50,065 nt of DNA, taken from IMG/VR virus record IMGVR_UViG_3300009129_000023, positions 1 to 50,065 of that record, one strand, 5' to 3'. Both the position numbers and the translations under genes were made by a program. The DNA comes from a virus. Numbering within the stretch: the stretch's first letter is position 1; every line of letters begins with the position of its first letter. The notes under the pieces were generated by a model. It ran no database searches. It saw only the letters and a program-made list of their open reading frames with translations, and was not told the origin of the DNA. Positions 8,801 through 42,008 of this stretch are shown here, piece after piece.

Positions 8801-11800
8801 TGCAGGGATATCATGGGTGGTTAATTCAATTTTGTCACCTACTAAGACAAACTTATCGGCATCGAGAGATGGCTGGCCGTCGACAGCGGAAACAGTAATT
8901 GAATGATCACTCCCAGCAGCGGAGTTCAATATAAACCCGCCACCTGTAGAAGGGCTAATTCCAATTCCAACGATCGGCCCAGTGGTTGTTTCTGCTATCG
9001 GATTATCAACGGCTCCACCGGTTGAACATATTTCCAACTCTACTTTCCCATAATTTAAGTTATTTGGGCTATAAAATGTCGTACTGTCCCAGGCACCCCA
9101 GCCGCATGAAGTATTAACAACATTGATTGTTTGATCTTGGATATTGGATCCATCACCTTCTATTGCATGGCTAAAAGAAACTGTATATGATGTTCCATGG
9201 GCGGAATTAGCTGGAATCGATAATTGCGGCCCGGTGCCGGAATATGGCCCATTACCATCAACATAATATTCCCACGTTTCTCCGGTGCCAGCTGGGTTGC
9301 CTTCCCCATCATAGTCTGCCATGACCCCGAATATTAGTGTAATCCATCCGCCGGCGTTGGTATCCGTATTGACGTCCCAGACGTTTGGTGCCGAAGTGGT
9401 GAGGCTACCACCTGATGTTAAACCGCTACCCCCTGTTACTCCATTATTATCTGCACTTAAAGTAAATGCAGCACCGGTAACTTCTCGTTTAGCGTATACC
9501 GTCCTTTGAAAGGTTTGAGTATCAGTTACAAAATTGCCATGTGCATCTTTAGCAAATCCGCTAATAGAAAAATCCATTGTGAAAATCGGAACCCCAACCG
9601 GGTTTCCCTGACCATCTACCGCCCTATAAGCCTTACCACCATCGTAGTTCGCCACAACATCTGTTAACTGTGAAGCATTATTAAGATCCAATGTAGGTTC
9701 GGAAAGACTGGTGCCGGTACAAGACCAATCGTATACTCTTCCGGATCCACCGCCATTATCATCTGACTCAGTCCATGTTACCCGAATTCGACTATCCATC
9801 TCAGTCGTTGTTTTCATGGAAGAGTAATTTTCTAATGAAGGGGATATACTGAAGGCTGGTATACTTGGAAATTCAATCAGGTCATTAACAGTTACATTAT
9901 CTGAAGCTACCAACGCATTTCCCGAAGTACCTAATGAAAGTGATATCCCTCCATTAATTTCTTCGACAGTAGCAGACTCAATTACTGATAGCAGATTGAT
10001 TGTGTAGCTAGAGCTAGATCCATCGTTTAATAAGAATTGAGCCTCAACAGACCCATCTGGATCCCACTCAGTGAAGGTAATATCACCGTGTTCGTTGATG
10101 CCGGCGTGTGTCTGGTCACCATCGTCTGTACCTATAAGGCTCCATGTACCAGCTGGGTCGGTATCAATAATTGTATTTGCCGGGCTACTATTTAGGCCCC
10201 AGTAATATGTTACTGTAGCTGCTAGACTCCATGATCCAGGAACATCAACATCATCAACACTGATATAATCAACCCCCTCAACTTGGCCGGAGGCGAGTGG
10301 ATCACTCTCAATATCTGGGGGTAGTGCACTTACTGGAGCTAGTGTAGCTGAACCTACTGATAGGCCAGTCTGAACATGGGCTTCTTCCCAGGTGCTATTA
10401 TCACTATTGCTAACTAAGACGCATTGTATTCCGTATGGTAAGCTGGCTGGATCCAAAGCTCCAGCCACAGTCATTAAATCCGGATATCCAGGTGTACCAG
10501 GTTGTCCTAGATTTTCATTATATAGATTAACGCTATGTACTGCAGTATATGTTTGGTAGTCACCGGAGTCTGGAGTACTTTCCTGGCTCCATGCTAGAAG
10601 TGAAGTACGTTCATCACCATCTACTAACCATGATATATCACCTGCAGAGTTCCAGCTGGCATCATTTGTTCGAACAACCTTCCAGGAAACTCGAGTATTT
10701 GTTGTGGTGGCTGCGCTGTTATTACCCCTATGATCTTGTGGCACGTGCAATTTAACAGCTATGTCTAAGCCAGGATGGCCATCACTATATGTTGGTGTTG
10801 TTGATGTCACCTCAACATAGGCAGGTATACCGCAGTATATTCCTGTCATATCAATTGCATATTCACCTGATGTATAGTCCTCTATAAACTTTCGATAACC
10901 ATTGACATTTTGGGACATTTCATCAGGAACAGCTTGACCCCCGTACGCGGGATCACATTGGACGTCCTCACCCTCACCCGTACATGCATCCGGATCCGGG
11001 GTCGACCAAGAAGTATCACTACTAAGGGTCAAACTAGATCGCTCTTTAGCTGTCCGGACAAACTGGCCCCAACTTAAGTTGTACCCATTAATCGTCAGGC
11101 TCCATGTTGCCTGACTGTATGCAATGTCATTAATACTTCTCTCGAAGTCTAGGCGGTCTCGTGTTCCTTCGGCACTATCTTCGAAGTAACGCACCGAATC
11201 ATCGGCTAGCCGGTTTCCTTCATCCAACGGTGCACCGTCAAAGCTTTGGTTTGCCCTAATATTAGGTAACCGACTCTCTATTTCATTGATTAGGTGTACC
11301 GCGGCACTATTGATTTGAAATGATTCAACACGTGAACATAAGACGTTGTCAGCTATAATGAGATTTTGACCAGTATCTAGATCATTATTGACTTCCCACC
11401 TAAACTCGGGCGCGCTTTGGGAGTATTCATACCCCACCTGGTCTTCACCGGTATCGATAGGATCCCCATTACAATCGTATCCTTCTGGTGCACCGGATCC
11501 GCCACAATTCCCACACTCATCTTCTACAGCTGCACCAAATGCGGTACCGTCACAATCTTCGGGGGCAATAAGCGAAAAACTAAAATCATTTCCAGCTAAG
11601 CTACCGGTAGTTGATATCGATTCAAAGTTTACACCACCAGGCCCTTCAAAGACCGGTTGACTTATGACTGGGGTAAGCTCGCCTGGGTACTCTTCATCAT
11701 ATGATATTGTTACCAGGACACCGGATGATGTTGAAATTTCATCACCACTTTCATCAGTATCAACTGCTAGTGCACCCTGGGTCTGACCGTCAGATATAAC

Positions 11801-13216
11801 CATATTGACTTGGTTAAAAACGCTAGCTTCCTGCGGGTGTACATTTGTAAGGGTTACACCACTTACGGCAAACTCGAACCCTGTGATACTTCCACCGGTG
11901 AAAGAATAAGATATATCTTTTGTAGTTGTAACCCTAGTTGGGGCCCCGGCAGTGACAGTCATGACAACACTAGCGGAATTAGATGTACAGCCTACGCTAT
12001 TTCCAACTTCCCAAGAGAATGTGTCCGATCCTATAAATTCAGAGCTAGGTGTGTATGTTATGACACCGGCATTTAATTCTATCGATCCATAAGACGGCTG
12101 GCTGACAATTGCATATTGATCAAAGGTATCACCAGAACCGGCGGTACCGATGTAATTACTTAAAGTTATTTGAAAGGTTGAGTCATTAGCACATTCTCCG
12201 GTGGCACCATTAATAATAGGGGCTACCACACATGATGCATCATCGCTAGTGGCCGTCACATCATAATTACATGCGTTCGAATTAGTACAACCGTATACGT
12301 CGGTATCAGTTATTGTAATGTTAACATCACCAATTTCTGATACACATGTGTCAGCGTCTGTAACTCTCCAACGGAAGGAGTCAGTGTCTCCGGAAACTCC
12401 TACATCCACATTGGGGCTATATGTAAAGACTCCGGCAGATCCTTCAGATAAGGTACCCTTGGTTGGATCTGTGGTTATTTCATATGAGAGTGCACCAGAA
12501 GAATTGCTTACGTAACTGTTTAAGTCAATTGATACGCTGTTCGGATGCTCGAGTGTCGTCTTGGTTTGCGGGGTCGAAATAGTAGGAGGATAAATACAAT
12601 CCTCCATTTCACCATCATTACATGCGTCTGTATCATCACATTGTGACTGGCTGTATCCGGTGATTTCAACTATATGAAGCCGGCCACCACCATTTTCATT
12701 GCTAGTAATATTATATGTTAGTGCATTACCTTCTGAGTCTGAAAATTCTGATATGCCACCACTATCGAAAGAGTCAGAATTATTAAACCGAATTACATCA
12801 CACTCAGAATAATCGGTCGGGGCTACTGTGCTTAAATGATAAAGAGCTGATGCCGTAACATCTAAGGATGCACTATCCCCATTGAAAGCATCTCCAGAAG
12901 CAATATCTCCTGTAATTTTGTGTTGTGTTACATTAATTGCCCAATTGTCAAAACCGGGCCCGGTTTCACATGGGTTTTCACCGCCGGTGAAGAGTCCGCT
13001 CTGGGCTGCGCCATCTTTTTCAACCTTAAGCTTAAATGAAGCTACATCAACCCCTGCAGCCTCAGCGTCAGAATTAACAAGAATTTCTATTCGAATACAG
13101 CATGTCTGTTGGCCGCCATTAATGGTGGTAATCGGATTTCCGGATAGGTCTTCCAACACCTCTAGATCAACAAGGCCTGTTAGTCCGGAAAGGCCGTCTA
13201 AAAATTCATCAGGCAT
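5801..13216 (-). CDS. Giant multi-domain surface/tail adhesin (Ig-, cohesin- and dockerin-like modules)
   Basis: 2,471 residues with no membrane segment. Visible modules include cadherin/Ig-like repeats (about 205-300 and 335-430; GTLSEGSAGVFTYSP, DSFRWRVTDAD), two Cys-rich motifs of the sort frequent in marine bacterial surface proteins (YGCTNSNACNYD near 308; VEDECGNCGGS near 555), three cohesin-like domains (near 430-530, 1680-1780 and 2055-2160) and an EF-hand/dockerin-like segment (AGDGFVDNAELSRLQ near 1880). Repeated Asp/Asn-rich calcium-type loops run throughout. It starts at ATG 13216 after GCGGAGGA. A receptor-binding tail fibre, whisker or decoration protein is the likeliest role. 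It has no cysteine-protease or glycanase motif that I can see. Confidence 0.85.
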   Translation of the reverse strand: MPDEFLDGLSGLTGLVDLEVLEDLSGNPITTINGGQQTCCIRIEILVNSDAEAAGVDVASFKLKVEKDGAAQSGLFTGGENPCETGPGFDNWAINVTQHKITGDIASGDAFNGDSASLDVTASALYHLSTVAPTDYSECDVIRFNNSDSFDSGGISEFSDSEGNALTYNITSNENGGGRLHIVEITGYSQSQCDDTDACNDGEMEDCIYPPTISTPQTKTTLEHPNSVSIDLNSYVSNSSGALSYEITTDPTKGTLSEGSAGVFTYSPNVDVGVSGDTDSFRWRVTDADTCVSEIGDVNITITDTDVYGCTNSNACNYDVTATSDDASCVVAPIINGATGECANDSTFQITLSNYIGTAGSGDTFDQYAIVSQPSYGSIELNAGVITYTPSSEFIGSDTFSWEVGNSVGCTSNSASVVMTVTAGAPTRVTTTKDISYSFTGGSITGFEFAVSGVTLTNVHPQEASVFNQVNMVISDGQTQGALAVDTDESGDEISTSSGVLVTISYDEEYPGELTPVISQPVFEGPGGVNFESISTTGSLAGNDFSFSLIAPEDCDGTAFGAAVEDECGNCGGSGAPEGYDCNGDPIDTGEDQVGYEYSQSAPEFRWEVNNDLDTGQNLIIADNVLCSRVESFQINSAAVHLINEIESRLPNIRANQSFDGAPLDEGNRLADDSVRYFEDSAEGTRDRLDFERSINDIAYSQATWSLTINGYNLSWGQFVRTAKERSSLTLSSDTSWSTPDPDACTGEGEDVQCDPAYGGQAVPDEMSQNVNGYRKFIEDYTSGEYAIDMTGIYCGIPAYVEVTSTTPTYSDGHPGLDIAVKLHVPQDHRGNNSAATTTNTRVSWKVVRTNDASWNSAGDISWLVDGDERTSLLAWSQESTPDSGDYQTYTAVHSVNLYNENLGQPGTPGYPDLMTVAGALDPASLPYGIQCVLVSNSDNSTWEEAHVQTGLSVGSATLAPVSALPPDIESDPLASGQVEGVDYISVDDVDVPGSWSLAATVTYYWGLNSSPANTIIDTDPAGTWSLIGTDDGDQTHAGINEHGDITFTEWDPDGSVEAQFLLNDGSSSSYTINLLSVIESATVEEINGGISLSLGTSGNALVASDNVTVNDLIEFPSIPAFSISPSLENYSSMKTTTEMDSRIRVTWTESDDNGGGSGRVYDWSCTGTSLSEPTLDLNNASQLTDVVANYDGGKAYRAVDGQGNPVGVPIFTMDFSISGFAKDAHGNFVTDTQTFQRTVYAKREVTGAAFTLSADNNGVTGGSGLTSGGSLTTSAPNVWDVNTDTNAGGWITLIFGVMADYDGEGNPAGTGETWEYYVDGNGPYSGTGPQLSIPANSAHGTSYTVSFSHAIEGDGSNIQDQTINVVNTSCGWGAWDSTTFYSPNNLNYGKVELEICSTGGAVDNPIAETTTGPIVGIGISPSTGGGFILNSAAGSDHSITVSAVDGQPSLDADKFVLVGDKIELTTHDIPAGVYSNTYVVNITLCSDTGSELVVTTSDSATITTTVHDCSCDLADWEDFTLDMGDKLLTVCTPGSETAPPDDVTLDTVSGQVNIASATAAETLAISDPLFSGVSWTVVVDITNIEMADPDGNITTPAAVYRTRIKNAVEAAWITPVDNDSDTGKFVLSSSSMDILGALDGANRYTVPYQVSATLCDSEVGAIENIYIDAYDCTPQITSINIYYDSDYDIESFGFDVSGGTVVSVGGGDAASAGLSMGTNGTSVMGNPPSGPGPILAAGSGTLLILEVQDADSVCISNVALQNGETVIPGVAVTGCDTVEATCVDEWSYNHGGSYVVQGFNPSYLGAPFKIVELVADIGDGGSQDGSTDRGDGFLLRKTRSDDDYNAGTQNVDWYGIEAFSGIIDEAPPEGQPPTGIDFSKKLNSAGDGFVDNAELSRLQASILSKIVKYTGPGMNNSPGTEYYPSDHPGRPGALNAPGGEGTDSYGPYYVDPDEALENGRATDTLYISTDAKYAIAEIPDETGDGQPEWPGGDMSPYEAMQLLGGTGQGSEIHVQGLLTIRKRSSCPGATEEAQYNSIEVKLYDNTTAPREEVDVDYNTDSDIAEFEFEVTGATDVEVVAGSGDAGSANFTMSYNSDSNTVIGTKTTGSITAGSGTLLKLSVPPSDRSSLCINDAVLEFRDAEGTTLDSSLDPENCNKVIIVNARTADCDWENWEKSGTLTTRLNIGAEVESEPQIVVCSATGYSAEEDKGSNPSTDFIYAELGSMKSRVTDDNANWPGDDAYTNVQVSIDSSWKDHLEVFLETDDQGNRDAVIRVIGGNTKINLPPGTYTVVYTVTAQICGTTQQRQGSVQLVVNDCTVQQQETSAPTDCCVTVNDYYAVTSALANNMIGLGEFIYAYFDPEGDVAKAHITRGPATSSHRDICYIFRKDTCALIGFRVAPDLGRGQDGTELTLIVALNADWVGKNIKLPGYPPEGETVLKENTSAGDWDREAIYKAINDGVATVCCIED

Positions 13217-19510: not shown

Positions 19511-19651
19511 TTACCATTCACCCCATTCGTCACGGTTCTTTCTGCGGATTATTGGCTCACGCCGGCGGACACGACCCTGTAGGGTTTTGCCATATGCGAC
19601 AATTGCCATTGCTGTTAGGCAGCCTAGTACGACTGTGATGTATGTAGTCAT
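19511..19651 (-). CDS. Micro-membrane protein (46 aa)
   Basis: One hydrophobic helix (MTTYITVVLGCLTAMAIVAY) then a strongly basic tail (GRVRRREPIIRRKNRDEWGEW), which gives an N-out/C-in anchor. The ATG overlaps the VWA gene's stop (TAATG), so it is co-translated with that gene and may tether it to the membrane. Confidence 0.6.
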   Translation of the reverse strand: MTTYITVVLGCLTAMAIVAYGKTLQGRVRRREPIIRRKNRDEWGEW

Positions 19652-21027
19652 TAAATGGCCTCCTTCTTTTGAGTCATCTGGATAACGAAGTCTCTCTTCG
19701 GTGCCTTGAAGTACAACTCCCGGCCCGGGCAGATAACGTATCCTCTCTTCAACCGGCTCTTACCAGGCTCGTAGCATTCCCCATCGGTGAGGATGAGGTA
19801 ACCATCGAATCGACTGGTGTTCTTGTTGGCGTGGTCAGTCACAGCCTGGAAATCAGTACCACCACACCGGGTGCGCTCAATGCCAGGAGTCTTATTTCTA
19901 GACCACTCTCTTTCACTATCCTCATCCACGGTGGAATCAAAGTTGAAGATGATGAACCTGGTTCGCCGCGACAGCTGCTTAAGCTCCCCAAAGAAGAGGC
20001 TAAGTGCCTCATCACCAACCGACCCACTCTGGTCGATGTATACCGCGATGGAGGAGGTGTATCCACGCTCCACTCCCGGGTGGACCCCAGGGTACTTGCG
20101 GTTGAGGCGCTTGATGTTGCTAGCGCGGTTGGCCCGGCGGGTCATTCCGCAGAACTGCTTAAGCACCGACTGCCAGGGGATCTCCTTGGAAATCAGGTCA
20201 CGGAGCTTGCCCCGCATACCGCCAGGAATGCTTCCCCACTGACCAGTCCGGTCAGCCTCTTGGACTGCCTCTTCCAAGGCCTGCTTGACCTTGCCCTTGA
20301 CCAGCTCTCTTTCCTCATCGGTAAGCTCATCCCAACCATCATGGTCATCCATCGGACCAGGCATTCCGGGACTATCACCTTCACCAGGCTGACCACCCTC
20401 ACCGGGCTGTCCATCACCAGGCTGACCAGGCTGACCCTGACCATCCTGCTGGCCTTGCTCGATATCATCTGCAACTTCCTGCAGCTGGCCGAAATACCAC
20501 TCTGCACTCATCTCCACTGGGAGGCTAGCGATCTTGGCGGATACTCTTTCGTACCGTCCAACTGCATCATCACCCATCTTGGCCTTCTGCTCCGAGGTAA
20601 GCTCAGCAAAGGCCTTACCGGGAACCAGGCCACCCTCGGGGAGCTCATCCTCAGGAATCAGGCTGTTGATAGCCAGGTCCGTGGCGTAGTTCCAGATCAG
20701 GTGGGGGGTGTGACGACGAGTTGTAGTGTGCTCGAAGACGAGGTGGTAACACTCATGCTTTAGAAGCCCCTTGACCTGCTTGGAGGTGAGGCTAGCGAGA
20801 AAGCGGGGGTTCCACCACATCTGAAGCTGACCGTCCTTGGCGAGGACACCAGCTGTGGGAATCTTGTCGGTCTTTGTCTTGGTGACCCGGCGAAGGATCT
20901 TGCTGAAGAAGGGTTCCGACCACATGAGGTTAATCAGGTGGGGGTCCAACTCAAACTTGGCAGCTGCAGCCTCGTCGGCCAGGTTAGCCGGGGCGATGTC
21001 TGTAGCAGTTGTTTCTTGTTTTGCCAT
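19651..21027 (-). CDS. Metallopeptidase-like and VWA domain protein (MoxR partner)
   Basis: 458 residues. The N-terminal half resembles DUF2201-type putative metallopeptidase domains, with LKHECYHLVFEH (HExxH, about 91-97). A Gly/Gln/Pro/Asp-rich flexible linker (about 205-245) leads to a C-terminal von Willebrand A domain with MIDAS motif YIDQSGSVGD and later TDGECY. The next gene upstream is a MoxR AAA+ ATPase, the standard partner of VWA proteins (as in RavA-ViaA or NorQ-NorD), which act together to remodel or insert cofactors into protein complexes. Start at 21027 gives eight bases to AAGGAAGGA. Codons are G/C-ending. Confidence 0.85.
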   Translation of the reverse strand: MAKQETTATDIAPANLADEAAAAKFELDPHLINLMWSEPFFSKILRRVTKTKTDKIPTAGVLAKDGQLQMWWNPRFLASLTSKQVKGLLKHECYHLVFEHTTTRRHTPHLIWNYATDLAINSLIPEDELPEGGLVPGKAFAELTSEQKAKMGDDAVGRYERVSAKIASLPVEMSAEWYFGQLQEVADDIEQGQQDGQGQPGQPGDGQPGEGGQPGEGDSPGMPGPMDDHDGWDELTDEERELVKGKVKQALEEAVQEADRTGQWGSIPGGMRGKLRDLISKEIPWQSVLKQFCGMTRRANRASNIKRLNRKYPGVHPGVERGYTSSIAVYIDQSGSVGDEALSLFFGELKQLSRRTRFIIFNFDSTVDEDSEREWSRNKTPGIERTRCGGTDFQAVTDHANKNTSRFDGYLILTDGECYEPGKSRLKRGYVICPGRELYFKAPKRDFVIQMTQKKEAI

Positions 21028-21050
21028 AACCATTCCTTCCTTATAGTACT

Positions 21051-21080
21051 ATTATACTATATGTAGGCAATATTTGCACG
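21051..21080 (-). promoter_or_regulatory. Phage promoter, GTGCAAA-16-TATAAT class
   Basis: GTGCAAA, 16 bases, TAG-TATAAT, then the ACTATAAGGAAGGAATGGTT leader. It drives the VWA gene separately from moxR. Confidence 0.85.
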
Positions 21081-21111
21081 TGAATGTCTGAAATAATCGA
21101 ATTATAATTAA

Positions 21112-21180
21112 GCTCTAAGTACCTAATAACATTGGACTTTAGGGAAGTACCTAACCTTTCGGTTCCAGACGGCCAATCAA
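21112..21180 (-). repeat. Two copies of the TTAGGTACTT 3' element
   Basis: TTAGGTACTT occurs twice on the minus strand between the moxR stop and the next promoter. Related elements follow the stops of several other transcription units in this region. Confidence 0.5.
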
Positions 21181-21221
21181 GTTGGCGCGAACAGTGTACT
21201 CTCCCCAAGTCCCGGGGGTTA

Positions 21222-22304
21222 TTAGACATTCCGGCTAGTCTGAACAGCCTTGACGACCTCCTGACCAATCAGCTTGTGCATCTTCTGGATGTTGTGCATC
21301 TGCTGCGTAGCGCTGATGCCGTTCCAGAGGGAGACCATCATCTCACCGGGGAGGCTCTTTGCAAAGGCCGCGACGTTCTTGGCCTGAGCTGCGGTCCACT
21401 TTTCGTTAGTGCAGTGGTTCTTCAGCTTCTCGATGAGGGCGTTAACCCGATCGTTTCCGAGAGCGCCGATGGTGTCCCGGTGCTGGTCGAAGCTGTTCAG
21501 GATATCCTCAGCCGAGAGGACCATCTCGTAACCTTCGACGAAGTCGCAGAAGGCGATGGCAGCCTCAGTTCCAACCAGTCCCAAGGCCACGGCGTAGAAA
21601 CCGTCGGGGCGCTTGTTCCCAGCCACATTGGCCGGTGCCATCTGCATGGCGACCAAGGCGTCGTTGGTGCGATGCCAGGAAGCGGGGTTCGGGCAAACCG
21701 TACCAGGCTCAACCTGTGTGGGGTCGACCCGGAGGTGCTCGGGGTGTTGACGAATGAAGTCAACCAGGACAGCGTCCAAGTTGTTCTCCACGGCCCAGAC
21801 CAGCCAGTCATCGGCGGTGGGGACCAGGTCACAAACCCAGAAGCGTCGCAGCAATGCCGGGTCCATCTCGTTGACGTCGTACTCAGCGCCGTGGTTAACA
21901 GCAGCGATGATGCGAGTCTCGGGGTGCAGCTTGTAAGGGTTACCGTCTTGGTCGTTACCAAGCTCCCGGTCCAGAACCAGCTGGAAGGAAGACTGCTGAA
22001 CACCCGGAAGGGCGCGGTTCATTTCGTCCAACATAAGGACAACCGGTTCCCGGCAAGCGCGGATGAACCAGGAAGGCATGCACATTGTCATGATGCCGTT
22101 TTCCTTCATACCCTCGATATCGGGGTAACCGGCCACGTCTCCTTCGGACATGGTGGAAAGGCGGACGTCGATGAAGGGAAGACCCTTGTCATCTGCCACG
22201 GCCTTACCGAGGTGGGACTTACCAACACCAGTTGGTCCCCGCATGAGAATTGCAATGTCGGCCGGGAGGTTCGGAGCGACGATCTTGAAGGTTTTAATAT
22301 CCAC
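21222..22304 (-). CDS. MoxR-family AAA+ ATPase
   Basis: 360 residues. Walker A GPTGVGKSH (about 23-31), Walker B VVLMLDEMNRA, sensor 1 IIAAVNHG and an arginine-finger region DPALLRRF are in MoxR order. It starts with GTG after CCAAGGAAAAAAAC. With the downstream VWA/metallopeptidase protein it forms a chaperone-like pair; its client is unknown but could be a phage or host complex. It has its own promoter and leader and a G/C-ending codon bias. Confidence 0.9.
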   Translation of the reverse strand: MDIKTFKIVAPNLPADIAILMRGPTGVGKSHLGKAVADDKGLPFIDVRLSTMSEGDVAGYPDIEGMKENGIMTMCMPSWFIRACREPVVLMLDEMNRALPGVQQSSFQLVLDRELGNDQDGNPYKLHPETRIIAAVNHGAEYDVNEMDPALLRRFWVCDLVPTADDWLVWAVENNLDAVLVDFIRQHPEHLRVDPTQVEPGTVCPNPASWHRTNDALVAMQMAPANVAGNKRPDGFYAVALGLVGTEAAIAFCDFVEGYEMVLSAEDILNSFDQHRDTIGALGNDRVNALIEKLKNHCTNEKWTAAQAKNVAAFAKSLPGEMMVSLWNGISATQQMHNIQKMHKLIGQEVVKAVQTSRNV

Positions 22305-22962: not shown

Positions 22963-23505
22963 CTATTCCAACGGACGAAGTGCCCCAGCTGGTATACCCT
23001 TCACAATGTCGGGACCAACCATCACGTCGACAACCTCCTTCTTGTTGTCGCCCATGTAGTGTTCACTGATCACCATCAGGATTTCTCCCTTCTTGATGCC
23101 ACGAACGTTATCATATGCATTCGCCGTTTCCCAGCGACTGATTTCCCGATTACACTTAACCAGGTTACCCTCTGCTGCAGCGAAAAATTCCTTTCCTCTC
23201 CTTGAAATCCCGGGAACCATGTCACGGCCACCGTCGACCCACTGGATCCGGCGCTTCGTGGTTGATTGACCAGCATCCCGCTTGGCCTGGCGCGCCGCAA
23301 TGCGCGCATCATTTAGTTGACCCTTACGCTCTTCTTCTTGCGCCTGCTCCTCCTGGAACGCCTCGATCGCAGCAGCAGCTGCATCGCGTGCCTCGTCTGT
23401 CTCGGCTTCGTTAAATGCTGTCGACAGTCGTTCATGCTCTAGGCGTGCACGGCGACTTTTGTCTTCACGAGCTTTTGCTAGGAGCGCTTTTGAATTTCGG
23501 GCCAT
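22963..23505 (-). CDS. Coiled-coil protein with KxGDLV-like C-terminal domain
   Basis: 180 residues. The first 85 residues form a charged Ala/Glu/Arg coiled coil. The C-terminal part (KRRIQWVDGGRDM, IKKGEILMVISEHYMGDNKK, VVDVMVGPDIV, IPAGALRPLE) reads like the small-barrel family with a degenerate motif. GAGGAAAGGAAATC precedes the ATG, and a class promoter lies upstream. The fusion suggests the barrel is a portable binding module. Confidence 0.6.
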   Translation of the reverse strand: MARNSKALLAKAREDKSRRARLEHERLSTAFNEAETDEARDAAAAAIEAFQEEQAQEEERKGQLNDARIAARQAKRDAGQSTTKRRIQWVDGGRDMVPGISRRGKEFFAAAEGNLVKCNREISRWETANAYDNVRGIKKGEILMVISEHYMGDNKKEVVDVMVGPDIVKGIPAGALRPLE

Positions 23506-24967: not shown

Positions 24968-25006
24968 TTAGGATTTGCTCTCGTCGACGAGGTCACCGAC
25001 ATTCAT
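24968..25006 (-). CDS. Empty KxGDLV cassette (12-codon micro-ORF)
   Basis: MNVGDLVDESKS and stop: a KxGDLV head joined directly to a DES-type tail, with no body. It starts inside the last codons of the preceding array gene with the same 14-base overlap. It may be a deletion scar at the end of the first array and not a functional peptide. Confidence 0.4.
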   Translation of the reverse strand: MNVGDLVDESKS

Positions 25007-25193
25007 TGATCACCCTGACTTCATAGTGGCTGTCGAGTGGCCAGCTCATGATTTCGCCGGTATTCGACATAACAATAGCAATCCTGCGGAATGCAGACGG
25101 CTTAAGGATGTTTATTACGATCCCATTATTGCGGGGGTTGGCTTTGTAATCCGGGAGCCCGGTTACCATTTGTACTAGATCACCGACGTTCAT
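24993..25193 (-). CDS. KxGDLV-type small protein
   Basis: 66 residues: MNVGDLVQMVTGLPD, NNGIVINILKPSAF, IAIVMSNTGEIMSWPL and the tail VRVINECR. The tail codons form the start of the micro-ORF downstream. Confidence 0.7.
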   Translation of the reverse strand: MNVGDLVQMVTGLPDYKANPRNNGIVINILKPSAFRRIAIVMSNTGEIMSWPLDSHYEVRVINECR

Positions 25194-25444
25194 TTCTTTT
25201 TTTCCTCGTAGGCTTCTTTCGCCGGTCCAGCCAATGCGCCAATAGAGCCCAAAAAATCGTGGAGTGTTTCATCACCCTTCTTACTTCCTGTGAAATACCG
25301 TGGCCCAGCACGCATTGCATCCGGAGCATTAGGCATCTCACCTGTCTTCATATTTTTCTGAATCTCTTCATCTGTATCGCCGTAGGGTGACCACCACCCT
25401 CCGCCTGGTTGAAGAATCTTGCCATCAGGTCCCATTACACTCAT
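25190..25444 (-). CDS. Hypothetical protein embedded in KxGDLV array
   Basis: 84 residues without the family motif: Gly/Trp-rich (GKILQPGGGWWSPYGD), probably partly disordered, with AMRAGPRYFTGSKKGDE and a charged end (EAYEEKKK). It overlaps both neighbours by four bases (ATGA), a different joint from the 14-base one. Function unknown. Confidence 0.6.
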   Translation of the reverse strand: MSVMGPDGKILQPGGGWWSPYGDTDEEIQKNMKTGEMPNAPDAMRAGPRYFTGSKKGDETLHDFLGSIGALAGPAKEAYEEKKK

Positions 25445-25674
25445 TTCATTCCTCTCGTCGTAAACAAAAAATCATCAAAAGATGCAGGCTCACCACCTGG
25501 GCCGAGCACTTCCCACCTCGTGTTACTATAGTCGCACTCCTCAATTAGGAGCAGAGGTGCACCTTCTTCCACCCACTTCCCAATGAGGGGATGACCATGC
25601 TTTCGGTAAGCCTTCCGCCAACGTGCTGGGCCTGGGTGGGACTTTAAAAGTCTGACCAAATCACCGGGTTTCAT
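25441..25674 (-). CDS. KxGDLV-type small protein
   Basis: 77 residues: MKPGDLVRLLKSHPG, a basic insert (WRKAYRKHGHPLIGKW), APLLLIEECDYSNTRWEVLGP and FDDFLFTTRGMK. Joined to the upstream gene by the 14-base overlap and to the downstream one by ATGA. Confidence 0.7.
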   Translation of the reverse strand: MKPGDLVRLLKSHPGPARWRKAYRKHGHPLIGKWVEEGAPLLLIEECDYSNTRWEVLGPGGEPASFDDFLFTTRGMK

Positions 25675-25867
25675 TGTGTATCACCTTAAGATAATCTTGT
25701 CTCATAGCCCTGGGCAGCCCATCAACGAGGATTGTAAACCACTCACCCCATGTTGATGTTGGATGATCAAAATGATCAGCGATGATACCAACCTCTCCTT
25801 CCCAACATGTCCAAGTAGCAAAATGCTTCTTGCTCTGGGTGATTTCTACCAAGTCACCGGGCTTCAT
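25661..25867 (-). CDS. KxGDLV-type small protein
   Basis: 68 residues: MKPGDLVEITQSKKH, GEVGIIADHFDHP, EWFTILVDGLPRAMRQDYLKVIHNETR. AATGAAACCCGGTGA is read as NETR-stop here and MKPGD in the next gene. Confidence 0.72.
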   Translation of the reverse strand: MKPGDLVEITQSKKHFATWTCWEGEVGIIADHFDHPTSTWGEWFTILVDGLPRAMRQDYLKVIHNETR

Positions 25868-26051
25868 CGATGATACTCCACTTTGTATACATTAGTCGGG
25901 TTACCCACATTCGGCCATCATCACTTAGGATCCGAATCCGGGGAGTTTCTTGATCCAGTTCAATCTTGGCCGGAATTACTTCCAGCACTAGAGCTATGCA
26001 ACCATGTGCCTTGATCAGATCACCCTCTTTGATGTGGTTACCGGGCTTCAT
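25854..26051 (-). CDS. KxGDLV-type small protein with doubled head
   Basis: 65 residues. MKPGNHIKEGDLIKAHG has two motif copies in tandem (KPGN and KEGDL), as if one head was added in front of another. ALVLEVIPAKI, RIRILSDDGRMWVTRLMYTKWSIIDEAR follow. Confidence 0.7.
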   Translation of the reverse strand: MKPGNHIKEGDLIKAHGCIALVLEVIPAKIELDQETPRIRILSDDGRMWVTRLMYTKWSIIDEAR

Positions 26052-26220
26052 ATACTGGCTCCATCAAACGTTCGACGACCCAATTGAGTCGACCATCTGA
26101 CCATTTGACCAGATAGGTCGGGGGCTTCGTGGATGTGGGTTGGTGATAGCCAATGATGATACCCAGTAGTCCACCTTCAGAGAGTTTGTGTCTTATCATA
26201 TTGCCGATCTTCATAGTCAT
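26038..26220 (-). CDS. KxGDLV-type small protein
   Basis: 60 residues from the ATG overlapping the upstream stop (ATGA): MTMKIGNMIRHKLSEGG, LLGIIIGYHQPT, YLVKWSDGRLNWVVERLMEPVYEAR. The K-W-S-DG turn is a clear family example. A longer frame from 26262 is rejected because it would run across the upstream gene. Confidence 0.7.
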   Translation of the reverse strand: MTMKIGNMIRHKLSEGGLLGIIIGYHQPTSTKPPTYLVKWSDGRLNWVVERLMEPVYEAR

Positions 26221-26906: not shown

Positions 26907-29453
26907 TTACTCTTCTTGATTAGGCACTTCAAAATCTACCAATGTACGTACGTCATCTTTAAGGCACATCGTTATAACTTCTTGTAAACATTGGTGACTA
27001 TTTAAGAATATCGATAACCTATGAGGGTGAAGATTATCTTTGAGATCAAATTCCTTACATATAGAACCCTCCGGAAGAGCTAACCGTACGGCATGTTTTC
27101 TATCTAGATCTTTATCCGCTATTGTTGATACCCCATAGAGCACATAAATCTTTTGTTGCGGCTTAAACTGTAGTTTTGATAAATCCATCTGATCAGACCC
27201 GGCCGCTATCTTAAGCTTTTTGGCCGAAGATAGCATTTTTTTTGTTGCATATGACCATCGATTATCATTCAATTTCTTTCTTTCTTTATTAACGAGTATG
27301 GTGGGAGGAGAAAAAGCAATAATTTTATTAACAACTAATTTGGCACCAATGTATAAGGCAGCGTATCCACCGCTGGATGTACCGATAGTTATAACATGTG
27401 TATATCCACGATCCTTAATAAATTTCTTAAGGTAATCTACAAATTGGTCTAAACTATCTGCGATATTGCCCACACCCTCAAAGTACCAGTTTCTTGATAA
27501 GTCCCTTACAAAAAGTGTATCGTATTCAGAACTAAATTGTTGTTTCCTTAAGCAGTTAAAGATAAACGCCGGCCTTTGGCTTCCGGCCACACCATACCCA
27601 CTAAAACTAATTATTAGCTTCTTATTTTGCTTTTCATTTCCCTGATTGTAATCAATCGAATTTCGTTCGGCTGGTTTTCCATCACTAATTGCTCGTTGTA
27701 GTTCAGGGGTTTTTTTGAAGTCTATAACAAGGTGAATTCTATCAACATCTAATGAATTATTTCGTACGCTATGGACCTTGTTGACGTTTGTATAATATAA
27801 ATTGCCTTCTGTGAGATAACGGGTCACTTTTTCAATGGTAAAATCGACGTATGAATAGTCTGCAACTAAGGGTATTGCCATTCTGTATTTGTATTTACCA
27901 AAAGAATATAATGTTCCGTTATATCGGCCCTGGTCGACATGCGGGGCAATATTGCCGCCAGCTTTTAGGCGCATACATCGAGCAAATTGAATTTTTGAAT
28001 TGAATTTTGCTTCCAAATTTTCAAAAACTGTTTTAAGGTAAGGGCATCTTTCCAAAAAATCAGTAGGTTGGGACGTGAAATCTATCCCAGCATTTGGTGT
28101 ATCGGTAAACTTAAGCCCGTTAACGCTACTATCACCATCCCAATTGATTAATGGTATACCATCCCAGCCATGGGTATTTTGATATAAAGGTGATGGGCGC
28201 CCATTGATAAGTACTAACGGCTTCGAAAAATAATCGTTGATTGACTCATTAATTTCCTCCATAACCCTCTTAGCGTCTAGAACTTTACCAAGATTTACTA
28301 TGCTGGCCGGAAATCTTTTTATGTTCTTATTTTCTTTAGTGTGTGTGCCCTTGGTATTGATGAGATTTAGGTTCTCGAGATCAAAGTGATCTTTCCTTTC
28401 ACTAATTAGCTCAAGATATGCCTCCTTTGACTTAAAGTACTCTGATACGTCAAACACATTTTCGAATTTGTTAATAACACCATGGTATTCTAGCGCTATC
28501 AGCGTCCTTAGGCACTTATCACACTTTCCACAATTAACATAATCTGATTTAACCCTACGCTGGATCTGGCATACATCCAAATATTGCTGCGCAAAGATAT
28601 TACTTGAAATTCTTTTGACCCTTTCTTCTCGATTATATTTAGAACCAACATTAATGCATTCGATATTCTCGGTACTCATAAGATTAATCATCGAAGGATT
28701 TGCATATCCAATCCGACTTTTAATGTTGGACATTTTCTGTGTTTGCTCATATGATATTGCGCTAGCGCTATATACTTTTGAAAACAACTTAGGAAATATT
28801 AAAGCTGCTCCCATATTTCGAAATATATGTGTTTCATTGTACGTATATTTCCATCCAGAGAATTCCTCAAAGTTTGCTATGTTTGATAATACCGGCAATA
28901 GCTCTATATTGATAGCCTTAGTATATTTTTCATATTCAATAAGTTTAGATTTCCAATATTTATCACCAATTGCACCGGAACCGTGAGCACCGGTAGAAAA
29001 GTTAAAAGCATGCGTAATTTTGAAGTTTTTTGGACATGTCTCATCGAAATAATAGTCTTCGAAGCTAACTAAACTATCAACACCACATGTGAGGGCAGCA
29101 CCTACGGCATATGCCGATGGATATGTCTCGTCTATAAGCTTGTCAACAATAATATTGGTCGGGCCAGTTGCTCGAGGAATTGTACATATTGTATGAGGAA
29201 TTAGAAAATTTGCTATATTAACCCAAAGCTTTTCAGACATATGTCCTTTGACAACTATATCTTCCTTACATGCCAATGCTAACGGTAATAATGTAAGAAC
29301 AAAACAATCGTATGTCAACTCAACATATTGTCTATACTCCCAAGGAAAAAAATATCTCAATTCATGCCCTTTTTTCCCGTTCATTTTGACAATACAACTA
29401 AATTTGCAAGATCCTTTTTTGGTCTTAGATATTTTGATATTACTTAAAATCAC
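26907..29453 (-). CDS. Three-domain enzyme: PP-loop-like, aspartyl/asparaginyl hydroxylase-like, alpha/beta hydrolase
   Basis: 848 residues. Domain 1 (about 1-345): LTCGVDSL at 121-128 resembles the SGGxDS PP-loop of QueC/asparagine-synthetase-type ATP enzymes, followed at 308-314 by CGKCDKC, a probable zinc site, before LRTLIALEYHG. Domain 2 (about 400-585): HVDQG at 505-509 and HSVRNNS at 561 with RIHLVIDF fit the H-x-D...H iron site of aspartyl/asparaginyl beta-hydroxylase-like 2-oxoglutarate enzymes. Domain 3 (about 610-840): GTSSGGYAAL (GxSxG, Ser 693) and LHPHRL near the end fit an alpha/beta hydrolase or thioesterase. I know of no described protein with this trio. It is divergent from the ATP-grasp and racemase genes, suggesting one pathway. 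Low G/C at third positions sets it apart from the early region. Confidence 0.75.
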   Translation of the reverse strand: MILSNIKISKTKKGSCKFSCIVKMNGKKGHELRYFFPWEYRQYVELTYDCFVLTLLPLALACKEDIVVKGHMSEKLWVNIANFLIPHTICTIPRATGPTNIIVDKLIDETYPSAYAVGAALTCGVDSLVSFEDYYFDETCPKNFKITHAFNFSTGAHGSGAIGDKYWKSKLIEYEKYTKAINIELLPVLSNIANFEEFSGWKYTYNETHIFRNMGAALIFPKLFSKVYSASAISYEQTQKMSNIKSRIGYANPSMINLMSTENIECINVGSKYNREERVKRISSNIFAQQYLDVCQIQRRVKSDYVNCGKCDKCLRTLIALEYHGVINKFENVFDVSEYFKSKEAYLELISERKDHFDLENLNLINTKGTHTKENKNIKRFPASIVNLGKVLDAKRVMEEINESINDYFSKPLVLINGRPSPLYQNTHGWDGIPLINWDGDSSVNGLKFTDTPNAGIDFTSQPTDFLERCPYLKTVFENLEAKFNSKIQFARCMRLKAGGNIAPHVDQGRYNGTLYSFGKYKYRMAIPLVADYSYVDFTIEKVTRYLTEGNLYYTNVNKVHSVRNNSLDVDRIHLVIDFKKTPELQRAISDGKPAERNSIDYNQGNEKQNKKLIISFSGYGVAGSQRPAFIFNCLRKQQFSSEYDTLFVRDLSRNWYFEGVGNIADSLDQFVDYLKKFIKDRGYTHVITIGTSSGGYAALYIGAKLVVNKIIAFSPPTILVNKERKKLNDNRWSYATKKMLSSAKKLKIAAGSDQMDLSKLQFKPQQKIYVLYGVSTIADKDLDRKHAVRLALPEGSICKEFDLKDNLHPHRLSIFLNSHQCLQEVITMCLKDDVRTLVDFEVPNQEE

Positions 29454-29505: not shown

Positions 29506-30315
29506 ATGAGCCGAAAACTTAAGCCGTTAGCACCCGACCGAAAACCGTTTATTGAACGTGTCAAAGAAAAACCATTTTCAGAAAGAGTCCGCCGGCGGGA
29601 TTGGAAGAAAGACTGGCACGAATCTTACGTCTTTTTAGGGAATAAGCTTAATGCTAAAATCTTCGTAGAAAATCTTGGAATACGTACACCAGAAACATAC
29701 GGAGTCATAACCGGTGCATCAGATGCACATGGTATAACTGAGTTCCCCCCTAATTTGCCAAGTTCATGGGTCTTAAAACCTATACGCGGAGCAAATGAGT
29801 CTGGTGTTATTGTGTGTGTCGATGGAATAGATCAAGTTAGAAATAAGCCGGTTACTAAAGAGCATATACAATCTGTTATGAAGGCATCACCCCTTAGAAA
29901 CAAGGCAGGTGGAAATGTATATCTTGTTGAAGAATACATTCAGAATAATCTACAATATCAAGTTTATACATTTAGAGATCATGCAGAAATTATTCGTACA
30001 GCTACATCCGGAGGAAGTAAGGGTACTTTTTACTTTAAAGATTGGACAGAAGTTTCATATCCATTAACGGTTAATATTATCCCGGGTAAATATACTTCCC
30101 CCAAGCCATCTGGGTTACAAGAATTATTAAATGCTGCTGAAATTTTAGGCAAGGCATATGGTACATTCGTTCGAATCGATTTTTATATGCAAGAAGATCA
30201 ACCAGTTTTTGGAGAATTTTCTTGGTATCCTGGAAGCGGAAAGGTTTTTACATCTGAAGCAGAAGGCCTATTAGGAGATTTATGGATAAAGCATTTAGGG
30301 CCTGATGTTTTGTGA
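29506..30315 (+). CDS. TupA-like ATP-grasp ligase
   Basis: 269 residues. WVLKPIRGANESGVIV (about 89-104) is the ATP-grasp lysine and glycine-rich loop; YLVEEYIQ, VRIDFYMQ and FGEFSWYPGSG match the metal-binding strands of TupA/teichuronopeptide-type ligases, which form amide bonds on surface polymers. AGGAGG precedes the ATG, and TAGTATAAT lies about 20 bases upstream. The next gene starts inside its stop (GTGA), so the two are coupled. Confidence 0.8.
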   Translation: MSRKLKPLAPDRKPFIERVKEKPFSERVRRRDWKKDWHESYVFLGNKLNAKIFVENLGIRTPETYGVITGASDAHGITEFPPNLPSSWVLKPIRGANESGVIVCVDGIDQVRNKPVTKEHIQSVMKASPLRNKAGGNVYLVEEYIQNNLQYQVYTFRDHAEIIRTATSGGSKGTFYFKDWTEVSYPLTVNIIPGKYTSPKPSGLQELLNAAEILGKAYGTFVRIDFYMQEDQPVFGEFSWYPGSGKVFTSEAEGLLGDLWIKHLGPDVL

Positions 30316-31430
30316 ACAGTTCAATTCGTCATACTATAGCACATATCGACCTAAGTGCCCTTCGTCATAACTATCGTATAATTCAAGAGTATGTTGGATC
30401 AGGTGTAATAGTATTGGCACCGGTTAAAGGAATGGCATATGGTCATGGTGCCATAGCTTGTGCCCAAGCACTCGAGGATGAAGGGTGTAATTATTTTGGG
30501 GTTGCCTTGGTTGAAGAGGGCAAGGCATTAAGAGACGCCGGTATTCGAGGAAATATCATATGTCTCAGCGGTACCAGCCCCAGGGCACCAAAAGAAATAA
30601 TACGTTCCAAGCTTACACCAGTGTTGTACGACTTAGAAACAGCTACTTCTCTTAATAAGACTGCATGCAAAATCGGTGTGCAAGTTGATGTACATCTCAA
30701 AATAGATACAGGTATGGGACGCTTAGGCGTTTCATTAGCCAATTGGCCTGACTTTCTAAAAGGAATTAAAGAACTCAAAGCATTGCAAGTTAAGGGAATA
30801 TGCACCCATTATAGCGATGCTGATATCATCGGTTCGAATTTCACCCATATACAAACTGAACGATTCAATACAGGATTAGAAATTGCAGCATCCTTTCATA
30901 TCCACCCTGAATTAATTCATGCCTCAAACTCAGCTGCAGCCTTAAGTTATCCCAAGTCTCGTTATAATATGGTCCGAACAGGCATTGCCCTTTATGGGGT
31001 CTCACCACGAGATGATCTAGACTTGCCGCTTAAGCCAGTCATGAGTATTGACACAGAGGTACTTTTCGTTAAGAAAATACAGGCGGGAGAAGGTGTCTCA
31101 TATGGGGGTACATGGAAAAGTATCACGGATGCGATTATAGCGACACTTCCTATAGGCTATGCAGATGGGTACCCTAGAAGTCTATCAAATCTTGCGTCTG
31201 TAGAGATTAAAGGTCACCGGTGTCCAATTAGGGGACGAGTTTGTATGGACTTATTAATGGTCGATGTAAGCCAGGTACCTACAGGGGTGAGGTCTGGAGA
31301 TCGTGCGGTTTTACTCGGAGGATCTATAACTGTAAATGAGCTAGCTAGTTTAGCTAATACTATTCCCTACGAAATACTGACGTCATTTTTCGGGCGCATT
31401 CCTAGAAACTTTATTAATGAAAAGACCTAA
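30312..31430 (+). CDS. alr: Alanine racemase
   Basis: 372 residues, full length for the family. VLAPVKGMAYGHG carries the PLP lysine (usually VVKANAYGHG; here KGMAYGHG). MGRLGV, LIHASNSAA, RTGIALYGV, IATLPIGYADGYPR (catalytic Tyr region) and GRVCMDLLMVDV follow in order. It starts with GTG overlapping the ATP-grasp stop. Interconverting L- and D-alanine would feed a D-amino acid to the coupled ligase or alter host peptidoglycan. Phage alanine racemases are unusual. Confidence 0.93.
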   Translation: MNSSIRHTIAHIDLSALRHNYRIIQEYVGSGVIVLAPVKGMAYGHGAIACAQALEDEGCNYFGVALVEEGKALRDAGIRGNIICLSGTSPRAPKEIIRSKLTPVLYDLETATSLNKTACKIGVQVDVHLKIDTGMGRLGVSLANWPDFLKGIKELKALQVKGICTHYSDADIIGSNFTHIQTERFNTGLEIAASFHIHPELIHASNSAAALSYPKSRYNMVRTGIALYGVSPRDDLDLPLKPVMSIDTEVLFVKKIQAGEGVSYGGTWKSITDAIIATLPIGYADGYPRSLSNLASVEIKGHRCPIRGRVCMDLLMVDVSQVPTGVRSGDRAVLLGGSITVNELASLANTIPYEILTSFFGRIPRNFINEKT

Positions 31431-40165: not shown

Positions 40166-40340
40166 CGATTTTCTCCAATGTCTCGAATCCTCGAGAAGTT
40201 ATTTTTCTAGCATCTCTAACCGGACAACCCTTAGAGAACCACATAATTTCTGGATACGTATAGTCTGATGATGTGCTGATGCGTACTATCATACCTCTAG
40301 CTTTGGTGCGCTTACATTGAACTAAGTCACCGGTTTTCAT
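40155..40340 (-). CDS. KxGDLV-type small protein
   Basis: 61 residues: MKTGDLVQCKRTKARG, MIVRISTSSDYTYPEIMWFSKG, SRGFETLEKIDDN. The ATG sits in the upstream stop (ATGA). A longer frame from 40370 overlaps that gene and is rejected. Confidence 0.7.
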   Translation of the reverse strand: MKTGDLVQCKRTKARGMIVRISTSSDYTYPEIMWFSKGCPVRDARKITSRGFETLEKIDDN

Positions 40341-40516
40341 ACTATCACCAGCTGATTCCCTGTGAAGCATTGCACCCCTGTATCACATAAAACCCAATAT
40401 AATTGAAGTGCAGGGTTCTCTTTAGCTACGTGAGAAGGCTCAGTAAGCATTTGAATAATGCCTGCTTTTCCCTGTTGCGCACAGTTTCGAAATATTACTA
40501 AATCACCGACTTTCAT
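40337..40516 (-). CDS. KxGDLV-type small protein (59 aa)
   Basis: MKVGDLVIFRNCAQQGKAG, then IIQMLTEPSH, ALQLYWVLCDTGVQCFTGNQLVIV. Joined upstream by the 14-base overlap (DESR-stop over MKVGD) and downstream by ATGA. Confidence 0.72.
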   Translation of the reverse strand: MKVGDLVIFRNCAQQGKAGIIQMLTEPSHVAKENPALQLYWVLCDTGVQCFTGNQLVIV

Positions 40517-40703
40517 CGATCACCTTCAAATCGTTTGTATCCGCACCGATTAGTTCGCCACCATCATAGAGCACTAACCATTCCCAATTGATTGGATCAC
40601 CGGATGCGAAGGTCGATCCATCACCAATTTCGATATAATCGCTTCCTACGACGATACCGTCCCTGCCAAGGGCATAATCATGTACCAAATTACCGATCTG
40701 CAT
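40503..40703 (-). CDS. KxGDLV-type small protein
   Basis: 66 residues: MQIGNLVHDYALGRDG, IVVGSDYIEIGD, WEWLVLYDGGELIGADTNDLKVIDESR. Interlocked at both ends by 14-base overlaps. Confidence 0.72.
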   Translation of the reverse strand: MQIGNLVHDYALGRDGIVVGSDYIEIGDGSTFASGDPINWEWLVLYDGGELIGADTNDLKVIDESR

Positions 40704-40914
40704 ACGTTACACTCATAAACTTATTTGCACGAAAGTCGGAGACAGTTGCTGCACGATCGTGATACGGAACTGGGTTCATCCATTCTACCCGGCAATGTGA
40801 GTTACCGTCAGAACCAATTTCAGTATAGCTAATGATAACACCAACCTGGCCCAGGAACCAGCGAGCGTATCTACATGTATTATCGACAAACATCACGACA
40901 TCACCGATTTTCAT
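40690..40914 (-). CDS. KxGDLV-type small protein
   Basis: 74 residues: MKIGDVVMFVDNTCRY, GQVGVIISYTEIGSDG, HCRVEWMNPVPYHD, FMSVTYADR. Its ATG overlaps the upstream stop (TAATG); its tail encodes the next MQIGN. Confidence 0.7.
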   Translation of the reverse strand: MKIGDVVMFVDNTCRYARWFLGQVGVIISYTEIGSDGNSHCRVEWMNPVPYHDRAATVSDFRANKFMSVTYADR

Positions 40915-41376: not shown

Positions 41377-41580
41377 TTATGCTTTATTGATAACTTCGTA
41401 ATATTCGGCCAGGTCTGTCTTTACATTTCCATCTGGAAGAATGACCTTGATCGCATTATGGGCAGCCTCGAGGACCAGCATTGGCGTCTCTGTGTATGCC
41501 ACGTGGCCTGGGCTCCCATGGCCGTGCTTTTTCATCCAAAATGAAATGAACTTCATTTTCACCAAATCACCGGCTTTCAC
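41377..41580 (-). CDS. KxGDLV-type small protein
   Basis: 67 residues: MKAGDLVKMKFISFW, HGHGSPGHVAYTETP, MLVLEAAHNAIKVILPDGNVKTDLAEYYEVINKA. Last gene of its unit. Confidence 0.72.
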   Translation of the reverse strand: MKAGDLVKMKFISFWMKKHGHGSPGHVAYTETPMLVLEAAHNAIKVILPDGNVKTDLAEYYEVINKA

Positions 41581-41800
41581 AATCGCACTCCTTAAGTGTT
41601 ATGATAATAGAGCTTTCGATACATACGGGGCACCTGATATATTCAACCTGGGTAGGCATATTATTTGCCTTCCAGTAGGCTGCCCAGAGGTATGGAATGT
41701 CCGCTATCGTATGAGTCCATGGGCCAAGGTACCAATCAACACAACACTCTGGTATTCCGGAATGTATTCCACACTCACGGTGGTAACCGTCAGCTGCCAC
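41567..41800 (-). CDS. Cys-rich protein with cassette-type tail
   Basis: 77 residues without the family motif. HSGIPECCVDWYLGPW and YIRCPVCIES suggest metal binding. Its end, CDCESR-stop, still interlocks with the next MKAGD by 14 bases, so a non-family gene uses the array's joint. Confidence 0.65.
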   Translation of the reverse strand: MAADGYHRECGIHSGIPECCVDWYLGPWTHTIADIPYLWAAYWKANNMPTQVEYIRCPVCIESSIIITLKECDCESR

Positions 41801-42008
41801 TGATCACCTCAACATCTCTACTATTTACCATTATCTCACACTGTGCCGGATCATCAGGATGATGCACCAAGATACTAAACATACTACCGTGTGGTTCACC
41901 ATAATCATCTGTTACGATGCCTGTCAGGCCGGCCCATTGGTCTGGTACATGGTTATCAGGGCTGCTATAATTCTTCGGTAACATTTTTACTAAATCACCT
42001 AACTTCAT
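41790..42008 (-). CDS. KxGDLV-type small protein
   Basis: 72 residues: MKLGDLVKMLPKNYSS, GLTGIVTDDYGEPHG, MFSILVHHPDDPAQ, NSRDVEVISGS. Confidence 0.72.
   Translation of the reverse strand: MKLGDLVKMLPKNYSSPDNHVPDQWAGLTGIVTDDYGEPHGSMFSILVHHPDDPAQCEIMVNSRDVEVISGS

Follow-up and report, generated by a model that had tools for sequence, protein, structure and literature searches.

We found that small phage genes, which stand in tandem arrays as cassettes, are acquired, lost and exchanged among related viral genomes, with the crossovers lying within a short DNA sequence, here called the joint, that is repeated where one cassette meets the next. The joint was noticed in a stretch of 50,065 nt, positions 1 to 50,065 of the IMG/VR virus record IMGVR_UViG_3300009129_000023, which is referred to below as the window. 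We consider it probable (about 0.78) that the window holds a cassette array of a T4-like phage in which the joint homology, repeated in each gene pair, mediates cassette exchange.

The minus strand of the window contains clusters of genes of 55-110 residues whose products start with M/V-K-x-G-D-L-V. The initial annotation had pointed to nine junctions at which one 14-nt sequence serves both as the end of one gene and as the start of the next; all nine are present on the minus strand, each with an overlap of exactly 14 nt. It had also proposed that the GGTGA of the KxGD codons supplies the upstream stop, which holds for seven of the joints (TGA) but not for the two at 26038 and 40690, where the stop is the TAA of GGTAA at a KxGN start. 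With up to two mismatches allowed, the motif RATGAAAGTNGGTGA occurs 19 times in the window against 0.95 expected from dinucleotide shuffles (largest shuffle, 5), an approximately 20-fold excess. At two of the nine joints the upstream gene (41567-41800 and 46938-47192) is without a KxGD start, and further KxGD starts in the window overlap the preceding gene by 4 nt (n = 6) or by 1 nt (n = 3). The joints are listed here, each followed in brackets by its span with the Shine-Dalgarno (SD) sequence (-12 to +20):

25661-25674 (25655-25686), minus strand: GGTGA stop of gene 25661-25867 and start of gene 25441-25674
25854-25867 (25848-25879), minus strand: stop of gene 25854-26051 and start of gene 25661-25867
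26038-26051 (26032-26063), minus strand: TAA (GGTAA) stop of gene 26038-26214 and start of gene 25854-26051 (MKPGN)
40503-40516 (40497-40528), minus strand: GATGAAAGTCGGTGA
40690-40703 (40684-40715), minus strand: TAA (GGTAA) stop, downstream start MQIGN
41567-41580 (41561-41592), minus strand: upstream gene 41567-41800 not of the KxGD type
41995-42008 (41989-42020), minus strand: 14-nt overlap
46938-46951 (46932-46963), minus strand: upstream gene 46938-47192 not of the KxGD type
47705-47718 (47699-47730), minus strand: AGTGAAAGTCGGTGA, SESR tail

The cassette genes and the main array are as follows:

24993-25193, minus strand: KxGD cassette gene, 4-nt joint at 25190-25193
25441-25674, minus strand: KxGD cassette gene, 77 aa, 60% amino acid identity to positions 8460-8705 of locus L120
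25661-25867, minus strand: KxGD cassette gene, 68 aa, SH3-like barrel in the model
25854-26051, minus strand: KxGN cassette gene, 65 aa
26038-26214, minus strand: KxGN cassette gene, 58 aa
38583-47980, minus strand: main array region with 14-, 4- and 1-nt joints, other small genes interspersed
40337-40516, minus strand: KxGD cassette gene, homolog in L004, L116 and L143 has other neighbours
40503-40703, minus strand: KxGN cassette gene, similar L004 sequence lies downstream, not upstream, of the homolog of 40337-40516
40690-40914, minus strand: KxGD cassette gene, upstream joint 1 nt
41377-41580, minus strand: KxGD cassette gene
41790-42008, minus strand: KxGD cassette gene
41995-42198, minus strand: KxGD cassette gene, upstream joint 1 nt
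46769-46951, minus strand: KxGD cassette gene
47389-47718, minus strand: KxGD cassette gene, 109 aa
47705-47980, minus strand: KxGD-type gene, start MLNYIKVGDLV, end EIVSESR

The conserved unit is longer than the 14 nt initially reported. It extends about 12 nt 5' of the start, where the Shine-Dalgarno sequence lies, and about 20 nt into the gene, giving a joint of about 30 nt, (T)GGAGGT.ATCA[A/G]TGAAAGTCGGTGATTTGGT, which encodes the upstream C-terminus LEVI-SESR-stop, the Shine-Dalgarno sequence, the start and the downstream N-terminus MKVGDLV. The 14-nt overlap is the shortest in its frame, since ATGAARNNNGG excludes stops at overlaps of 2, 5, 8 and 11 nt. By sequence logic, the first stop in the 14-nt frame is GGT-GA at positions 12-14 and that in the other frame is ATGA; as the motif contains a TGA in each of the two other frames, within ATGA and within GGTGA, an upstream frame of any phase is closed. 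The 14-nt form is therefore best seen as the outcome of a LEVI-encoding end meeting a KVGDLV-encoding start. The neighbours lie on the same strand, their stop and start overlap and the SD lies within the upstream gene, as in coupled overlaps; this anatomy suggests that neighbouring cassettes are translationally coupled.

Several other genes of the window were noted. Unusual cargo for a phage contig is found at 26907-29453 (minus strand; a protein with an Aspartyl/asparaginyl beta-hydroxylase domain), 29506-30315 (plus strand; a TupA-like ATP-grasp protein) and 30312-31430 (plus strand; a full alanine racemase). A small SET-domain protein (97 aa; histone-methyltransferase-type domain) is encoded within the phage array at 43364-43657 (minus strand). 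At 19651-22304 (minus strand) a MoxR-like AAA ATPase (21222-22304) adjoins a DUF2201 metallopeptidase/VWA protein (19651-21033), and the two are kept as neighbours in L002, L004, L005 and L006. The gene at 5801-13216 (minus strand) encodes a protein of 2471 residues that carries a single Ig-like domain (Big_9) and has no match in PHROG.

Scanning IMG/VR with the joint pattern yielded at least 120 stretches. Among the matches listed, 1328 non-redundant KxGD starts were obtained from the IMG/VR relatives, 834 with a 14-nt overlap, 220 with a 4-nt overlap and 51 with a 1-nt overlap, and since most of these loci were collected by the joint sequence itself, both the joint similarity and the 14-nt share are inflated. 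In the array-bearing loci collected without the joint sequence (the window, L004 and L008) the corresponding counts are 37, 17 and 4. For prokaryotic gene overlaps in general, 4 nt accounts for about 45% and 1 nt for about 15% (PMC3887535). Locus L004, which was found via its DNA ligase rather than via the joint, has 20 starts with a 14-nt overlap and a repeat of about 30 nt, GAGGTGATCA GTG AAA GTC GGT GAT CTG GT, which reads E-V-I-S-E-S-R-stop in the upstream frame and V-K-V-G-D-L-V in the downstream frame; its GGAGGT, about 6 nt 5' of the start, provides a Shine-Dalgarno core. At the joints generally, the upstream tails are SESR or NESR and an SD-like (t)GGAGGT, consensus TGGAGGT, lies at -12 to -6. 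Start-to-start spacing is 1 mod 3 in 594 of 757 cases, as 14-nt overlaps give.

The joint is the only DNA common to the cassettes of one genome: joints (-12 to +20) within a genome are 63-89% identical in pairwise comparison, whereas the flanking 32 nt on each side are 24-36% identical, which equals random. The suggestion in the initial annotation that conservation of the protein motif is partly conservation of a DNA joint was borne out by codon choice. At the 14-nt joints Val3 reads GTC 494 times, which makes up about 79% of the Val codons there against 18% in gene bodies, and this is not forced by the overlap, because GTA equally gives the upstream Arg. The Glu of LEVI is GAG in 626 and GAA in 16 cases (1709 and 2209 inside genes), the Ile at the joint is ATC in 66% against 32% inside, and GGT is kept at 61-75% at starts that do not require it for a stop, compared with 31% inside genes and 45% before Asp. 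The preference for GTC over GTA may reflect avoidance of an internal SD-like site (AGGTGA), homogenisation by exchange, or weak structure.

The cassette genes appear to encode small folded proteins of one kind. An AlphaFold2 model of the product of 25661-25867, built with 101 family members, is a five-stranded SH3-like barrel (pLDDT 86.2, pTM 0.72) in which DLV forms strand 1 and LKVI the last strand; NETR, the tail contributed by the joint, is not part of the fold. The best Foldseek matches are SH3 domains and cyanobacterial PetP (probability 1.00, TM 0.6-0.7, best E 0.011), and we thus model the cassette proteins as SH3-like barrels. Searches of Pfam and PHROG gave no match of note, and the best E in a PDB profile search was 0.063. 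Substitutions at codon positions 1, 2 and 3 number 763, 515 and 1751, a pattern which shows that the cassette genes are under protein constraint. Among the matches listed, the 1328 genes fall into 875 clusters at 50% identity, 682 of them singletons; pairs at 50% identity occur 11 times within one locus and 774 times between loci, which indicates that arrays grow by import and not by local duplication. No relatives were found with cassette 25661-25867 and 22963-23505 as queries, two cassette proteins and a 5.3-kb array had no match in 50,697 phage records, and no publication on phage SH3 arrays or KVGDLV proteins came up in a literature search. Since the pool is this large and its members lack annotation, new accessory proteins of phages can be drawn from it.

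Direct evidence for exchange came from closely related arrays. Loci L025 and L027 differ by exactly one cassette, absent from L027, between flanks that are 99.5% and 100% identical; the crossover falls within 20 common nt, ATGAAAGTCGGTGATTTGGT, to the left of which the sequence matches one parent joint and to the right the other. L136 has a cassette 92% like a non-allelic cassette of the L038 array, with flanks 98.5% and 100% identical to those of L038 and an exact common tract of 5-7 nt at the crossover. Homology likewise ends at a joint in the pairs L107/L150 and L114/L146, and lone cassettes of 170-190 nt with 96-99% identity are found in otherwise unrelated arrays (L030/L038, L038/L096, L042/L186 and L054/L111). 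The relatives are all metagenome contigs, and assemblers misjoin at common short sequences; it would nevertheless be most improbable for the apparent swaps to be assembly chimeras at short repeats, the least probable of the explanations that we weighed, since the shared tracts of 20 nt and 5-7 nt are presumably under the usual assembler k-mers, the signal holds between contigs 75-95% identical and across samples, and neighbours differ in most pairs of cassettes that are 80-95% identical. In the latter comparison (protein identity), the homologous next gene is kept in 17 of 93 cassette pairs (18%) against 51 of 84 ordinary pairs (61%; p=6e-9).

The ends of homology were then counted over the collection. 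The ends of blocks at least 95% identical lie at KxGD starts in 54 of 77 cases (3.7 expected for random positions) and at other tight boundaries in 6, where blocks were taken from both members of a pair and the 77 ends are hence not 77 independent events. Per available boundary this amounts to 0.172 for KxGD starts and 0.026 for other tight boundaries, the latter resting on a home-made gene caller. Homology ends were clean in 24 of 25 cases. For blocks of 85-95% identity within the arrays, 159 of 782 KxGD starts were hit as compared with 18 of 318 other boundaries (p=1e-10). Crossover positions are spread over about -15 to +20. The window record has no very close relative, and its direct evidence consists of cassette 47389-47718 and of the shuffled homologs: the match of the cassette to L125, at 84.5% nucleotide identity, spans -28 of the cassette start to +3 of the start that follows, reaching from joint to joint and no further, and the nearest relatives of the window cassettes are scattered across different phages.

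Gene order is thus variable and breakpoints lie in the joints, the opposite of a fixed order with breakpoints never at the joints, which would have spoken against the initial annotation. The cassettes had been proposed to move in phase; exchange at the joints was found, but phase is not needed, as each joint starts translation anew and closes both other frames, and that interpretation as a whole is partly supported. A special role of the 14-nt class in exchange was considered and rejected, as breakpoints are equally frequent at 4-nt joints: the 14-nt joints and the 4/1-nt joints were alike in both comparisons (32/221 against 11/58, p=0.42; 115/515 against 22/132, p=0.19). Because the rates are alike at both joint classes, it is the shared DNA of about 20-30 nt, not the 14-nt interlock, that tracks exchange.

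The same independence of breakpoint rates from overlap type fits another account, in which the joint is a by-product of conserved terminal strands, a strong SD and compaction, and the mosaic edges come from ordinary illegitimate recombination, with selection keeping those that fall at the edges of genes. KxGDLV and LEVI are indeed conserved as protein, the model has them as its first and its final strand, and 14 nt is the minimum overlap in its frame; selection on the terminal strands and on the SD alone could keep the joint, with exchange as a by-product. We regard this account as unlikely, although it is the strongest of the alternatives. Inside the arrays, KxGD starts were hit in 52 of 314 cases and other tight boundaries of the same arrays in 0 of 76 (p=7e-6), the crossovers fall within the common 20 nt and not at scattered microhomologies, and the skew at synonymous sites goes beyond the needs of either frame.

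Two further rearrangements were seen. In L144 (positions 5071-5118 in gene-strand orientation) the start motif is repeated in tandem and in frame as a 24-nt copy (GTGAAAGTCGGTGATTTGGTAAGA ATGAAAGTCGGTGATTTGGTAAGA), which may be the scar of a slip or of recombination at a joint. Between L139 (2162-2378) and L177 (2960-2967), whose arrays are 99.6-100% identical, there is a 215-nt indel that lies away from KxGD starts, with 8 nt of sequence in common; it is an ordinary microhomology event and serves for comparison.

As for the phages concerned, a gp23-type major capsid gene is present in 15 of 20 records, among them every one of the 15 that measure 159 kb or more, and these large relatives are T4-like. 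The closest cultured phages by capsid are Flavobacterium immuto, Microcystis Mel-JY01 and Rhodothermus RM378 (about 42-55% identity over slightly more than half of the protein); the start pattern is absent from these three and from a Synechococcus phage. Salmonella Kuttervirus, suggested as a cultured relative by a 38-nt joint query, was dismissed as a chance match, being short and antisense to annotated genes. The window record is a 50-kb fragment without a capsid gene, and the ligase and small genes that it shares with L007 suggest that it too is T4-like.

RecA/UvsX was above the cut-off in 11 of 13 records. The T4 UvsX protein recombines and joins ends at homologies of a few nucleotides (PMC8262927), and amplification and deletion in T4 occur at microhomologies (PMC9391042); as UvsX needs only a few nucleotides, a joint of 20-30 nt should be ample for recombination. 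An integron-like, site-specific recombinase acting on the joint would also suit small genes arrayed in this way, with their recurring boundary and open cassette pool (875 clusters at 50% identity, 682 singletons), and single-stranded joints have weak hairpin potential, the 14-nt joints folding slightly better than shuffles (-2.2 versus -1.5 kcal/mol). We consider such a recombinase very improbable: Phage_integrase (tyrosine integrase) and Resolvase had no match in any of the 13 records, with control genomes positive, no integrase was found in the record of the window, the varying crossover positions do not define a single cut site, no folding excess is seen at the 4/1-nt joints, and hairpin covariation is absent at the single testable variable outer pair (p=0.21). 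A hairpin hiding the start codon was not adopted for the same two structural reasons. Given the T4-like relatives, the presence of RecA/UvsX and the undetected integrase, the most likely route is homologous recombination across the joint.

The explanation that we propose, exchange over the joint homology, would work as follows. Each cassette is a gene of about 150-220 nt for a mini-protein modelled as SH3-like, with its first (KVGDLV) and last (LEVI) strands encoded in near-constant DNA. Cassettes set end to end create the joint of about 30 nt, comprising C-terminus, Shine-Dalgarno sequence, start codon, N-terminus and the stop of the upstream frame. The joint may then serve as homology for the phage's own recombination, by a UvsX-type recombinase or by annealing in repair or replication, which would delete, insert and exchange cassettes. 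As each crossover rebuilds a full joint, new neighbours would instantly have SD, start and stop whatever the reading frame, any frame being tolerated at the new junction since the two other frames end at ATGA and GGTGA. A single stretch of DNA has five roles, and its stops in both other frames free the gene order to change.

The nearest known kinds are the T4-type PeSLs and the lambdoid boundary sequences, from which the joint differs in being wholly coding and in standing in tandem within one fold family. PeSLs (promoter early stem-loops) of T4-type phages were reportedly described by Arbiol in 2010 and Comeau in 2014 (cited in PMC4503421). PeSLs resemble the joint in that they are short regulatory repeats of T4-like phages, placed between small genes and giving homology for module shuffling, but they are described as promoter-terminator motifs, whereas the joint is part of both neighbouring coding sequences and supplies an SD, a start and a stop. 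The joint is not a PeSL in the strict sense of an intergenic early promoter with a stem-loop, being inside both coding sequences rather than intergenic and having no covarying hairpin; it does behave as a boundary sequence of the PeSL or lambdoid type, a short repeat at module boundaries with the breakpoints of relatives inside it. The lambdoid nin-region boundary sequences are said to have been described by Clark et al. in 2001 (HK620) as short shared sequences that are located at overlapping gene junctions and are proposed sites of homologous exchange of small genes. They belong to other phages, and the joint is in addition repeated between tandem paralogs, so that a single array can lose a cassette, take one up or undergo a non-allelic swap. 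The Start-Associated Sequences of cluster K mycobacteriophages are SD-containing repeats at the starts of small non-structural genes, within which an upstream stop is possible; unlike the joint, they end before the start codon, precede unrelated gene families and are not shown as exchange points (PMC3203893). The UvsX minihomology recombination and the microhomology amplification of T4 share with the joint exchange at very short identity and the probable machinery (PMC8262927, PMC9391042), but the T4 homologies are incidental and those of the joint are built into every gene end. Whether phage mosaic boundaries arise by guided homology or by random joining sorted by selection is debated (PMC3945230); in these arrays the boundary, the exchanged unit and the crossover are all readable, in hundreds of arrays, and the ordinary gene boundaries provide an internal control.

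Integron arrays are alike in having an open pool of small genes, a same-strand array and a repeated boundary; here, by contrast, an integrase was not found, there is neither a demonstrated structured site nor a fixed crossover, and the cassettes overlap and share a fold. It is conceivable, though we would place it slightly below even odds, that the arrays are the phage equivalent of an integron that needs no dedicated recombinase. The two terminal beta-strands of one protein fold would then, through their codons, provide the homology arms, the ribosome-binding site and a stop blind to frame, and any cassette could be dropped, gained or swapped anywhere and expressed at once, from a pool of hundreds of mini-proteins common to marine T4-like phages.
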